64,000 bases of DNA from Actinokineospora bangkokensis (GTDB lineage Bacteria > Actinomycetota > Actinomycetes > Mycobacteriales > Pseudonocardiaceae), in the NCBI RefSeq assembly GCF_001940455.1, contig NZ_MKQR01000026.1, forward strand, positions 237,318-301,317, given 5' to 3'. Of this stretch, positions 39,707 to 44,559 are shown one piece after another. The translations under genes were made by a program, and so were the position numbers. Position 1 is the first letter of the stretch, and every line of letters begins with the position of its first letter. Below the pieces are notes generated by a model. It worked only from the letters and a program-made list of their open reading frames with translations. It did not search any database and had not been told where the DNA came from.

Positions 39707-41002
39707 ATGGTCACCGTGAGTGGGACGCAGACGCAGAAGGGCGTGGAGGACACGCTCAAGGACTTCTGGGCGACCCGACCGCGCAGGCCCCGCCAGGGCC
39801 GCAAGGTCGCGGGCGTCGCGGCGGGCATCGGCGCGCGGTACGCGGTCGACCCCGTCATCATCCGGGTGGCCTTCGCGGTGGCGACGGTGTTCGGCGGGTC
39901 GGGCGTGCTGCTCTACCTGCTGGGCTGGCTGTTCTTCGCCGAGGAGGGCGACGAGGTCTCCGCGGCCGAGTCGCTGCTGCACAAGGGGCGCAGCTCCACC
40001 TCCCAGCACCTGGCGATCGGCCTGTGCATCGCGCTGATCCCGGCGTTCAGCTGGTTCATCGACGACGACGCCAGCAGCTACGTGGGCATGGCGGTGGTGC
40101 TGGGGCTGCTGTTCCTGCTGCACCGCGGCCGCGCCGACCTCGGGCAGGTGCCGGTGCCGGTGCAGCGGTCGGAGGTCTCCGCCGCCGAGGCGTGGCCGCC
40201 GCAGCCCGGCGAGCCGGGGCAGCCGGGGCACGAGGGGCAGCACGGGCAGCAGGGGCAGGCGGTGGACGTGTTCGGGCAGCCGACCACGCCCCCGGCCTGG
40301 GACCCGCTGGGCGCCGCGCCGTTCGCCTGGGACCTGCCGGAGCCGGGGTCGGCGCTGGAGCCCGAGCCGGACTTCCGGCCCGAGCCCGCGCGCCGGGCGC
40401 GGTCGGCGGCCGGGCCGGTGGTGCTGGCCGCGGCGGTCCTCACCGGGGTCGCGGCCGCGCTGGCCATGCCCTACACCGGCTGGCTGACCATCCCGCACGT
40501 CGCGGGCCTGGTCATGGCGGTCCTGGGCGCGGGCATGGTGCTCGCCTCGCTGCGCGGGCACGGCCGGGGCCTGGTGGGCCTGGCCATCCCGATGGGCGTG
40601 GCGGCGGTGGCGGTGACCCTGTTCTTCCCGCAGGGCTTCCGCGCCGACGGCTTCGGCGAGATCGACGTCAAGCCGACGAGCCTGCAGGACGTGCAGCCGG
40701 AGTACCGGCGCAACGCCGGGGGCATCACCGTCGACCTCACCGCCCTGCCGAACAGCGGGTCGACGCGCACCGAGGTCCACCTGGACGCGGGCAACGTGGC
40801 GGTCGTGGTCCCGCGCGACGCCGACGTGGTGGTCGAGTGCGGCGCCGGGCTGGGCACGGTGAGCTGCCTGGGCGCCAACAGCGACGGGCTCAACCCCGAG
40901 CAGGTCAAGCACGACAACGGCCCGGACGGCGAAGGCGGCCTCAAGGTGGAGCTGACCGCCCGCGTGAGCGGGCCAGGAGAGGTGGTGGTCCGCCGTGGCT
41001 GA
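39707..41002 (+). CDS. PspC-domain membrane protein with C-terminal adhesin-like domain
   Basis: 431 residues; ATG at 39707. The N-terminus has a PspC domain (RQGRKVAGVAAGIGARYAVD, VIIRVAFAVATVFGGSGVLL, YLLGWLFFAEEGDEVSAAES). A Pro/Gln/Gly-rich loop (residues 160-230) precedes several more membrane helices (AGPVVLAAAVLTGVAAALAM) and a C-terminal soluble beta-rich domain (GGITVDLTALPNSGSTRTEV, HLDAGNVAVVVPRDADVVVE) like LiaF/DUF2154-type domains that regulate LiaS-type kinases. It is divergent from a LiaRS/MacRS-like pair, so it may be the regulatory partner. Its end overlaps the next small gene by eight bases. Confidence 0.88.
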   Translation: MVTVSGTQTQKGVEDTLKDFWATRPRRPRQGRKVAGVAAGIGARYAVDPVIIRVAFAVATVFGGSGVLLYLLGWLFFAEEGDEVSAAESLLHKGRSSTSQHLAIGLCIALIPAFSWFIDDDASSYVGMAVVLGLLFLLHRGRADLGQVPVPVQRSEVSAAEAWPPQPGEPGQPGHEGQHGQQGQAVDVFGQPTTPPAWDPLGAAPFAWDLPEPGSALEPEPDFRPEPARRARSAAGPVVLAAAVLTGVAAALAMPYTGWLTIPHVAGLVMAVLGAGMVLASLRGHGRGLVGLAIPMGVAAVAVTLFFPQGFRADGFGEIDVKPTSLQDVQPEYRRNAGGITVDLTALPNSGSTRTEVHLDAGNVAVVVPRDADVVVECGAGLGTVSCLGANSDGLNPEQVKHDNGPDGEGGLKVELTARVSGPGEVVVRRG

Positions 41003-41204
41003 CCGCGACGTGCGCCGCCGGGTGGACCCGGTGACGCTGGTGGTGGGCCTGCTGGCCCTGGGGGTGGCCGGGTTCGCCCTGTCCGACGGCGCGGGCTGGG
41101 GGTGGGTGTCCCACGCGCCCTGGGGACTGGGGGGCGTGGCGGTGCTGGTGGGGCTGGTCCTGCTCGCCGCCTCCCGCAGGCGGCGCGGCGGGGGCAGGGG
41201 CTGA
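40995..41204 (+). CDS. Small two-helix membrane protein coupled to PspC gene
   Basis: 69 residues; GTG at 40995 lies eight bases inside the end of the PspC gene. It has two hydrophobic helices (VTLVVGLLALGVAGFALSDG, GLGGVAVLVGLVLLAASRRR) and a basic Arg/Gly tail (RRRGGGRG). Such small proteins commonly follow PspC/LiaF genes in actinobacteria. Function unknown; a role in the envelope-stress system is inferred from the operon. Confidence 0.75.
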   Translation: MADRDVRRRVDPVTLVVGLLALGVAGFALSDGAGWGWVSHAPWGLGGVAVLVGLVLLAASRRRRGGGRG

Positions 41205-41222
41205 ACCCGCCCGCGGCACGGC

Positions 41223-41258
41223 GCAGGGCCCCGACCGGGGAACCGGTCGGGGCCCTGC
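41223..41258. terminator. Bidirectional terminator (PspC operon / aldehyde dehydrogenase)
   Basis: Perfect 16-bp stem (GCAGGGCCCCGACCGG / CCGGTCGGGGCCCTGC) with GGAA loop, between stops at 41204 (+) and 41271 (-). Confidence 0.85.
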
Positions 41259-41270
41259 CGCGTGCCGGGG

Positions 41271-42728
41271 TCAGAGCTGCAAGCCCGCCAGCACCATCGT
41301 CTGCTCCTCGGTGAAGTCGTCCATCGCGGACTTGACGCCCTCGCGGCCGGTGCCGGAGCCCTTGACCCCGCCGTAGGGCATCTGGTCGGCGCGGTAGGAG
41401 GGCACGTCGCCGATCACGACCCCGCCCACCTCCAGCTCCGCCGCCGCTTGGAACGCCACCTGCACGTCCTTGGTGAACACCCCGGCCTGCAACCCGTAGT
41501 CGGTGCTGTTGGCCAGCTCGAAGGCCTCCTCGGCGGAGTCGACGGTGGAGACCACCAGCACCGGGCCGAAGACCTCCTCGCAGCTGACCTTGGCGTCGCG
41601 GGGGACGCCGGTGAGCACGGTGGGGGCCACCGTGGCGCCGTCGCGGGTGCCGCCGGTGAGCACCTTCGCCCCGGCCACCTCCGCCTCGGCGATCCAGTCG
41701 GCCACCCGCTCGGCGTTGTCCTCGTCGATCAGCGGGCCGACGTCGACCGACGGGTCGTGCGGGTTGCCCGTCGTCAGCCCCTCCACGGCGCTGACCAGCT
41801 TGGGGAGGAACGCCTCCGCCACCGCCCGGTGCACGATCACCCGCTGCACGGCGATGCAGGACTGGCCCGCCTGGTAGTTGCCGAAGGTGGCGATGCGGCT
41901 CGCGGCGGTGTCCAGGTCGTCCCAGTCCGGCAGCACGATGGCGGCGCTGTTGCTGCCCAGCTCCATCACCACGTGCTTGCGCGGGGCGGACTCCATGATC
42001 CCCCAGCCGACCCCGGTGGAGCCGGTGAACGAGATCACCGGCAGCCGCGGGTCCTCGATGAGGCTCGACATCTGCCCGCCGCGCACCGGCAGCACGGAGA
42101 ACGCGCCCTCCGGCAGGTCGGTCTCGGCCAGCACCTCGCCCAGCAGCAGCGCCGACATCGGCGTCGCGGAGGCGGGCTTGACGACCACCGGGGCACCGAC
42201 CGCCAGCGCGGGGGCGACCTTGTGCGCCACCAGGTTGAGCGGGAAGTTGAACGGCGCCACGGCCAGCACCGGCCCGCGCGGGCGGCGGCGGATCACCGCC
42301 ATCCTGCCCTCGCCGCCCGCGTCGGTGTCCAGGCGCTGGAGCTCCCCGACGTGGCGGCGGGCCTCCTCGGCGGCGAACCGGAAGGTCGACACCGCCCGGC
42401 GCACCTCCACCTCGGCCCACTTCAGCGGCTTGCCGTTCTCGGCGGTGATGGTCTCGGCCACCTCGTCGAGCCGCTCGGCCAGCGCCTGCGAGACGTGCTC
42501 CAGCGCGGCCGCGCGCACGTGCGCGGGCGTCGAACGGAACCGCTTGGCCACCCCGTGCGCGGCGGCGACCGCCCGCTCCACCTGCTCGGGGGTGGGCACC
42601 GACACGGTGGCGACCTCGGTCCCGTCGTACGGGTGCCGGACTTCGATGGTGTCCTCGCCGCGCTCGGCCCGCCCCGCGACCCAGAACGGTCGCGGCTGCG
42701 GGGCCACGGCGGTGTCTTCGACGGTCAT
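41271..42728 (-). CDS. NAD(P)-dependent aldehyde dehydrogenase family protein
   Basis: 485 residues. Motifs: VLAVAPFNFPLNLVAHKVAP (cofactor and substrate entry), VVVKPASATPMSALLL (K of PxS), SFTGSTGVGWGIM, catalytic Glu in HVVMELGSNSAAIV, catalytic Cys in GNYQAGQSCIAVQRVIVH, and CEEVFGPVLVV. All catalytic residues are present. The VMELGSNS and NYQAGQSC variants resemble the succinate-semialdehyde/glyceraldehyde-3-phosphate (non-phosphorylating) and sulfolactaldehyde side of the family; the substrate cannot be fixed. ATG at 42728. It is divergent from guaA and its riboswitch. Confidence 0.92.
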   Translation of the reverse strand: MTVEDTAVAPQPRPFWVAGRAERGEDTIEVRHPYDGTEVATVSVPTPEQVERAVAAAHGVAKRFRSTPAHVRAAALEHVSQALAERLDEVAETITAENGKPLKWAEVEVRRAVSTFRFAAEEARRHVGELQRLDTDAGGEGRMAVIRRRPRGPVLAVAPFNFPLNLVAHKVAPALAVGAPVVVKPASATPMSALLLGEVLAETDLPEGAFSVLPVRGGQMSSLIEDPRLPVISFTGSTGVGWGIMESAPRKHVVMELGSNSAAIVLPDWDDLDTAASRIATFGNYQAGQSCIAVQRVIVHRAVAEAFLPKLVSAVEGLTTGNPHDPSVDVGPLIDEDNAERVADWIAEAEVAGAKVLTGGTRDGATVAPTVLTGVPRDAKVSCEEVFGPVLVVSTVDSAEEAFELANSTDYGLQAGVFTKDVQVAFQAAAELEVGGVVIGDVPSYRADQMPYGGVKGSGTGREGVKSAMDDFTEEQTMVLAGLQL

Positions 42729-42796
42729 GCCACCACGGTAGGCCGCCGCGGGGGCGCGGGCTCGGCAACTCCCACCGGGTTACGATGGCCGCGGCT

Positions 42797-42929
42797 GACC
42801 GACGGTGGTGACTAGGGTTCCGCCGCCCCCTGGTGCGGGGCGGGTCTGGTTCGAGCGTCACGGAAAACCGGTGCGACGTGGGCACCGGCAGGCATCTCCG
42901 GGAGAGAAACCCAGGGAGGGACCGGTCGG
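42797..42929 (+). ncRNA. ykkC-class riboswitch upstream of guaA
   Basis: The conserved segments of the ykkC aptamer appear in order: CTAGGGTTCCG (42812-42822); a 7-bp stem CCGCCCC/GGGGCGG (42823-42843); GTCTGGTTCGAGCG (42844-42857, compare CUGGUCCGAGAG); ACGGAAAA; a variable stem CCGGTGC/GCACCGG (42868-42888); and GGGAGAGAAACCCAGGGAGG (42900-42919, compare GGGAUAAAAGCCCGGGAGA). P1 closes it: CCGAC+GGT (42799-42806) with ACC and GTCGG (42921-42929). The class includes receptors for guanidine, ppGpp, PRPP and nucleoside diphosphates; ligand here is not assignable by eye, but the gene (GMP synthase) favours a purine-related ligand. Confidence 0.82.
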
Positions 42930-42972
42930 CGCACAGTGCTGGGCTGGGCTGTGCGCCGGACGTGTCCGGCGC
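42927..42972 (+). terminator. Expression platform of the guaA riboswitch (mutually exclusive hairpins)
   Basis: H1: CGGCGCACAG (42927-42936) pairs perfectly with CTGTGCGCCG (42949-42958); its 5' arm shares 42927-42929 with the 3' strand of P1, so P1 and H1 compete. H2: GCGCCGGACGTGTCCGGCGC (42953-42972) is a 20-base palindrome that competes with H1. Ligand binding that holds P1 would block H1 and permit guaA transcription, a genetic ON switch as in other ykkC receptors. Confidence 0.65.
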
Positions 42973-43002
42973 CCGCGCGCCCGTCGAGAACCAGGGAGAC
43001 AC

Positions 43003-44559
<1,557 letters not shown>

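Follow-up and report, generated by a model that had tools for sequence, protein, structure and literature searches.

RNAs built on the ykkC scaffold are known to bind guanidine, ppGpp, PRPP, or NDPs, with one class remaining an orphan (PMC7266159). Three of these types, sensing guanidine, PRPP, and ppGpp, have been described as switching their genes ON (PMC6031431); for PRPP and ppGpp, a terminator is in competition with the closing helix, and ligand binding activates expression (PMC5912903, PMC10687018). The 257 published examples of the PRPP subtype (2b) are found in Firmicutes, on genes of the IMP/AMP pathway or on codA (PMC5912903, PMC7266159). The structures place A5, G6, and G105 against the pyrophosphate of PRPP and G104 against its 2-hydroxyl, and place all four of these nucleotides against the 5'-pyrophosphate of ppGpp (PMC6031431). 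Guanidine-I RNAs are marked by an A at position 46, which corresponds to position 49 of the PRPP numbering, and a G at position 96 is the reported mark that excludes ppGpp aptamers (PMC6031431).

We analyzed a 64,000-nucleotide stretch of the genome of Actinokineospora bangkokensis (the window), in which an earlier note had placed a ykkC-class riboswitch in front of guaA, the gene for GMP synthase. No mention of a guaA-linked ykkC RNA was found in open-licence papers, and the name guaA is missing from the main texts of PMC5912903, PMC6031431, and PMC7266159; one may exist in the defining papers of subtypes 2a and 2c, in the original guanidine paper, or in subscription journals. The RNA ahead of guaA is a genuine and conserved member of the ykkC family and, to judge from comparison of homologous leaders, probably a riboswitch. 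The ykkC fold itself is already known; what is new is probably a further ykkC variant with a differently built pocket.

Identification and Fold of the guaA Leader RNA

In gathering mode, Rfam listed no match in the window. In E-value mode, a search of positions 42700-43050 gave a single match, to RF00442 (Guanidine-I) at 42801-42920, with 34.2 bits (E 1.2e-4) against a gathering cut-off of 63 bits, and this locus was the only RF00442 match at E ≤ 10 (E 5.8e-4) across the 7.45-Mb genome. The ykkC-family core CUAGGGUUCCG ... GGUYCRAG ... GGGANARAARCCC, together with helices P1, P1a, P1b, P2, and P3, is present in the RNA (Table 1), and all of the ykkC blocks that the earlier note had named lie where it put them. 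Its assignment to the ykkC class is borne out by these core blocks, the sub-cut-off match, and covariation, and its placement of the RNA in the control region of guaA by 26 distinct homologues, all found directly before that gene. It had called for a covariance-model search and for an alignment of guaA leaders; the first returned the RF00442 match, though a sub-threshold one, and the second contains compensatory changes. The element does not begin at 42797, as had been supposed, but a few bases earlier, at 42793.

The TANNNT box that precedes every one of the homologous aptamers at nearly constant distance (Table 1) indicates that the transcript probably begins with P0; its predicted start, near 42793, coincides with the aptamer's first base, and a full sigma-70 consensus was not found at the window's leader. 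The upstream neighbor of guaA lies on the opposite strand, so a separate transcription unit probably begins with the leader. An open frame of 1304 amino acids (40471-44385, minus strand), antisense to guaA and its neighbor, is most likely a by-product of high G+C content.

Table 1. Features of the guaA leader and its neighbors, in coordinates of the window
Feature	Position	Strand	Basis or remark
Aldehyde-dehydrogenase-type gene, upstream neighbor of guaA leader	41271-42728	-	
-10-like box TACGAT	42781..42786	+	TANNNT 11-13 nt upstream of aptamer start in 26/26 homologues
ykkC-type aptamer, guaA variant (P0-P3)	42793..42929	+	RF00442, 34.2 bits; 157.7 bits with R1, a model built partly from this aptamer; covariation
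P0 5' strand CUGACCG	42795..42801	+	Pairs with 42923-42929
Junction J0/1, consensus ANGNYG	42802..42807	+	A, G, and final G the same in all 26 leaders
P1 5' strand	42808..42812	+	Pairs with 42857-42861; one pair A-U in 13/26, G-C in 13/26
Conserved core block CTAGGGTTCCG (P1a 5' side)	42812..42822	+	Motif reading
P1b stem-loop	42823..42843	+	7-bp stem, 42823-42829/42837-42843
Conserved core GTCTGGTTCGAGCG	42844..42857	+	42855-42856 are G48 and C49 (PRPP-aptamer numbering), invariant in 26
P2 variable stem	42868..42888	+	Arms 42868-42874/42882-42888; double changes in 6/6 pairs
P3 with pocket strand CAYC (C75-C78)	42893..42919	+	AG bulge 42913-42914; C75, A76, C78, G96 invariant in 26
Conserved block GGGAGAGAAACCC	42900..42912	+	Motif reading
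Junction J3/0 GGGACCGGU	42918..42926	+	Identical in 26/26 leaders; purine-operon and gltB references have UAGG or GAGG at this place
P0 3' strand CGGUCGG	42923..42929	+	Partly common to HP2
HP2, predicted anti-aptamer hairpin	42926..42959	+	42926-42936 with 42949-42959; 10 bp plus closing U-G
HP3, inverted repeat GCGCCGGAC-GT-GTCCGGCGC	42953..42972	+	Uses 3' arm of HP2
Putative Shine-Dalgarno AGGGAGA	42993..42999	+	Sequence reading
guaA, glutamine-hydrolysing GMP synthase, 518 aa	43003..44559	+	NF000848, E 6.8e-230

When 20 leaders were aligned with MAFFT, without fitting to a model, 99.4% of the cells were paired and double changes occurred in 7 of 35 pairs, giving a covariation score of 0.138 as against 0.068 for shuffled and 0.025-0.041 for slid controls. 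Over 26 leaders, in an alignment that was fitted to model R1 and is hence biased towards the proposed structure, 98.5% of the cells are paired, double changes occur in 14 of 36 pairs, and the score is 0.259 (shuffled, 0.089; slid, 0.030-0.052). The double changes in this larger set fall in P1, P1b, P2, and P3; the P1a/P1b helix accounts for six such pairs, and in P3 one pair changes from UA to GU and another on one side. P0 is paired in 98.4% of cells and shows one-sided changes only, and its 3' strand is in part also held by HP2; we count both points against the explanation preferred below. The free energy of the leader is not outstanding against shuffles (z -1.35; 19 of 200 shuffles as low), and the minimum free energy (MFE) fold of the window's leader differs from the aptamer fold. 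Chance resemblance is ruled out by the covariation and by the score of a Solihabitans leader absent from R1 (see below), and a coding explanation by the loop lengths of P1b and P2, which vary by steps other than three.

Homologues, Range, and History

RF00442 was searched over 150 genomes of the family, of which 56 matched at E ≤ 1. By eye, the matched loci are of the guanidine-I type, a transporter-associated type, or the window's type before guaA, a grouping that omits five of the 63 loci (L059-L063), matches without the core motif. Model R1, built from nine guaA leaders including the window's, gave 19 matches at 127-158 bits over 297 family genomes, every one of them preceding guaA, followed by a drop to 51 bits. 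Public genomes were also scanned with a sequence pattern, which yielded 39 stretches, 16 of them window-type RNAs before guaA: 12 from Actinokineospora and one each from Labedaea, Herbihabitans, Solihabitans, and Pseudonocardiaceae bacterium YIM PH 21723. The Solihabitans leader (L142), which lies outside the training set of R1, scores 138 bits with that model (E 1e-27).

At the level of the order (298 genomes), R1 added six genomes, scoring 71-107 bits, from a single genus in a second family; their leaders all precede a GuaA 74-76% identical to that of the window. A second model, R2, found no further guaA member in samples of the class and phylum (394 and 316 genomes); the 13 new loci there, L192-L204, are without guaA (row G1148:C21 lies outside that reading), and as the samples were drawn from larger groups, further members may exist. 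The weakest members, L184 (72.6 bits) and L185 (71 bits), are level under R1 with the best RNA outside the class, L121 (72.3 bits), an overlap that weighs against the explanation preferred below. R2, which was built with L184 and L185, separates them (89.7 bits each) from L121 (72.3 bits), so that their membership is based not on the R1 score but on guaA, GGGACCGGU, and ANGNYG.

The variant is thus found, among soil actinobacteria, in 16 of 16 Actinokineospora genomes, in four other Pseudonocardiaceae, and in 6 of 17 genomes of the second family. This range is narrow and patchy, and we count it against the preferred explanation. A GuaA match was present in 60 genomes of the family; of the 30 loci read among these, 25 have no core motif in the 330 nt preceding guaA. 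On a tree of 35 GuaA proteins the RNA label needs four changes, at least three of them forced by well-supported branches, indicating that the leader has either disappeared repeatedly or been transferred, together with the gene or independently of it. The guaA genes bearing the RNA form no single clade in this tree.

A Predicted Switch between P0 and HP2

The earlier note had described an outer helix overlapping a perfect 10-bp hairpin, which in turn overlaps a 20-base palindrome, and had taken the three to be mutually exclusive. The first overlap is real, but the outer helix is P0 and not, as stated, ykkC P1 (Table 1). The 10-bp hairpin, HP2, is upheld by compensatory changes (double changes in 4 of 11 pairs over 20 leaders, with 96.3% of cells paired). 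It shares 42926-42929 with P0, and the two are hence mutually exclusive; HP2 is the predicted expression platform, alternating with the aptamer. In the second family, the same P0 3' strand has a downstream partner at p ≤ 0.05 in three of six leaders; the MFE folds contain HP2 in L180, L183, and L185 but lack it in L181, L182, and L184, which counts against the switch. The GGGACC of J3/0 can extend HP2 through a downstream GGUYCC-like stretch (p ≤ 0.05 in 8 of 20 leaders; p 0.38 in the window).

The supposed palindrome is indeed an inverted repeat, HP3, but one with 9-base arms around a 2-base center. Analogues of HP3, in which the 3' arm of HP2 has a downstream partner, reach p ≤ 0.05 in 8 of 20 leaders (mean z -1.44), with p 0.24 in the window. 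HP3 is less well supported than HP2, and the proposed three-way exclusivity therefore holds for P0 against the 10-bp hairpin and in part for the third structure. A search of the window's leader for a U-tract found none, and an intrinsic U-tract terminator was rejected. Consistent masking of the Shine-Dalgarno sequence was likewise not found across 20 leaders: its accessibility is higher in the P0 state than in the HP2 state in three and lower in seven, and a consistent Shine-Dalgarno switch was rejected on these figures. The missing terminator and the inconsistent accessibility both weigh against the explanation preferred below, in which HP2 would lower expression.

Taking all of the evidence together, we consider it fairly likely that the leader is a ykkC riboswitch of an undescribed subtype (provisionally "2e", the guaA variant), switched ON through P0 and HP2. 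Transcription would start with the aptamer, and a ligand bound between P0 and P3 would stabilize P0, which in turn would block HP2 and allow guaA to be expressed; when ligand is absent HP2 would form and expression would be lowered. The ON direction is favored by analogy with the PRPP and ppGpp riboswitches. An OFF switch, in which P0 frees the 3' arm of HP2 so that HP3 forms and attenuates, with GMP, GTP, or guanine as a feedback ligand, is unlikely, but it would account for the HP3 analogues, whose partners differ among leaders and yet match. It sits poorly with the weaker support for HP3 in the window, with the missing U-tract, and with the ON behavior described for the guanidine, PRPP, and ppGpp members of the family (PMC6031431).

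The Binding Pocket Compared with Known Subtypes

Pocket letters were counted over the 26 leaders against the contacts reported for the PRPP aptamer and a ppGpp-binding mutant (PMC6031431), positions 95-105 being mapped on the assumption of an ungapped strand after P3. G48, C49, C75, A76, C78, G96, and A103 are kept in all 26, and position 77 varies between U (16 leaders) and C (10 leaders). Of the PRPP-type contacts, A5 is retained in 16 of 26, whereas G6, G104, and G105 are retained in none: G6 is replaced by a pyrimidine and G104 and G105 each by C throughout. The A5 kept in 16 leaders, and the ungapped mapping that the count assumes, weigh against the preferred explanation. The lower part of P3 is a CCUCC/GGAGG stem with an AG bulge in place of the GGA/AGG internal loop. 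On the ungapped reading after P3, these replacements, the altered P3, and the invariance of GGGACCGGU in 26 leaders indicate that the P0-proximal portion of the pocket has been remodeled and fixed.

A guanidine-I riboswitch was rejected, since all 26 leaders carry C in place of A at the A46 position, in agreement with the non-guanidine pocket that the earlier note had suspected. With RF00442 the variant shares the overall P1-P3 fold and the conserved core; it differs in this C, in the extra P0, and in gene context. That note had taken two departures from the guanidine consensus to separate subclasses. The A-to-C change does so under the rule given in PMC6031431, but the C-to-U change does not: it recurs in the purine-operon RNAs L116, L130, L136, and L137 (fetched by a sequence pattern requiring that same U), and the six second-family leaders have C there.

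The gene directly downstream is guaA in 26 of 26 cases; the amino-acid biosynthesis genes of the ppGpp subtype (2a), the NUDIX or HAD hydrolase genes of the NDP subtype (2c), and the EamA or TauE transporter genes of subtype 2d are absent from this position. The variant has the core and a nucleotide theme in common with 2c. L201 (G1148:C20), from the same phylum, is a ykkC RNA before a HAD-hydrolase-like ORF and a possible 2c member; it differs from the variant in its junctions by eye and scores 45.9 bits with R2. Judged by these sequence features, the guaA variant fits no known subtype among those that could be tested and is probably a new orphan variant.

Relationship to Other ykkC RNAs

Among 32 loci scored with R1, the highest values outside the class went to P0-bearing RNAs before EamA genes (L121, 72.3; L149, 69.6; L112, 68; L138, 67.9 bits), followed by MFS-transporter RNAs of Nesterenkonia and Garicola (65-52), a gltB RNA (55), four purine-operon RNAs (52, 47, 47, and 30), and two of guanidine type (48 and 43); transporter-associated RNAs as a whole score 33-72 bits. 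The genes of the reference RNAs were checked by Pfam, gltB being assigned from GATase_2 and a reading of the protein.

The guaA variant might share the ligand of the P0-bearing EamA-exporter RNAs, possibly within the orphan 2d, or of 2d itself; guaA would then either respond to a toxic metabolite or be its target. We regard this as improbable. The top EamA scores do match those of the two weakest members, and L121, L138, and L149 (EamA by Pfam) resemble the variant in P1 and in their P0 ends, with CUGAC or UCGAC and GUCGGCAC. Their J0/1 is GAAGG and their J3/0 GGGGAGAC, however, as against ANGNYG and GGGACCG in the guaA variant; the P3 internal loop differs as well, and the directly adjacent gene is guaA, never an exporter, in all 26.

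By eye, a P0-like closing helix is present before EamA exporters at L121, L138, L149, L112, L126, L127, L095, L099, L100, L102, L103, and L107 (EamA assigned by Pfam for the first three and by reading for the others). These RNAs come from actinobacteria and Chloroflexi, and may form a subtype apart from exporter RNAs without P0. The MFS-transporter RNAs of Nesterenkonia and Garicola (L111, L119, L123, L129, L134, L146, and L094/L148; Pfam for L119) have a possible P0, CCGAC/GUCGG, and L123 has an overlapping HP2-like hairpin, CGGCAUG..CAUGCCG. At L125 (Nesterenkonia alkaliphila) the 5' half of a ykkC RNA, recognized by eye, is followed by other sequence and a different ORF, apparently a truncated copy.

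We also give little credence to a diverged PRPP riboswitch (2b), for which high PRPP would signal a need for purines and turn guaA on. The resemblance takes in the core blocks, the pyrimidine at 49, P0, C75, A95-G96-G97 after P3, a P0 3' strand that overlaps a competing hairpin, and a purine gene downstream. What separates the two is the replacement of G6, G104, and G105 throughout, the rebuilt stem of P3, and the setting, guaA in actinobacteria as against the Firmicutes and the IMP/AMP genes or codA of the published examples. In the purine-operon RNAs themselves, P1 is preceded by AAGU and the closing helix by UAGG or GAGG, and these RNAs fall well below the 26 guaA leaders with R1 (52, 47, 47, and 30 against 71-158 bits). 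At L137, the PRPP-type RNA that precedes purE has a guaA homologue (53% identity) immediately upstream, a gene that is not under this RNA.

A ppGpp riboswitch (2a) is very improbable: the core, P0, the pyrimidine at 49, and C75 are shared and the one gltB-associated reference (L120, with AAGU before P1 and GAGG after P3) reaches 55 bits, but G at 96 in every leader, the replacement of G6, G104, and G105, and the gene context are against it, and ppGpp switching on GMP synthesis seems physiologically implausible.

Possible Ligands and Implications

Returning to the undescribed ON-switching subtype, we infer from the pocket letters that it would retain the one-phosphate site of the PRPP pocket (G48, C49, and C78) together with the C75/G96 site, and that the part next to P0, which contacts pyrophosphate in the PRPP aptamer, would have been rebuilt. 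A kept one-phosphate site beside a rebuilt pyrophosphate part would accommodate PRPP or ppGpp less well than a purine monophosphate (XMP, IMP, GMP, or AMP), which hints that the ligand may be a purine nucleotide with one phosphate. The narrower proposal, that the ligand is a purine monophosphate from the GMP branch (XMP, IMP, or GMP), recognized through the PRPP phosphate site together with a P0/P3 junction rebuilt for the base, is possible but doubtful.

The ykkC RNAs are among the leading natural examples of a single RNA scaffold that has evolved towards very different ligands (PMC7266159). Sensing of a GMP-branch monophosphate, if true, would add a fifth identified kind of ligand to this scaffold and would mean direct control of GMP synthase. 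In every case found, the guaA variant is linked to a single essential enzyme whose substrate and product are known, which narrows the question of its ligand to a short list; and because the variant lies near the exporter-associated orphan RNAs by score, solving it may help with those orphans as well.
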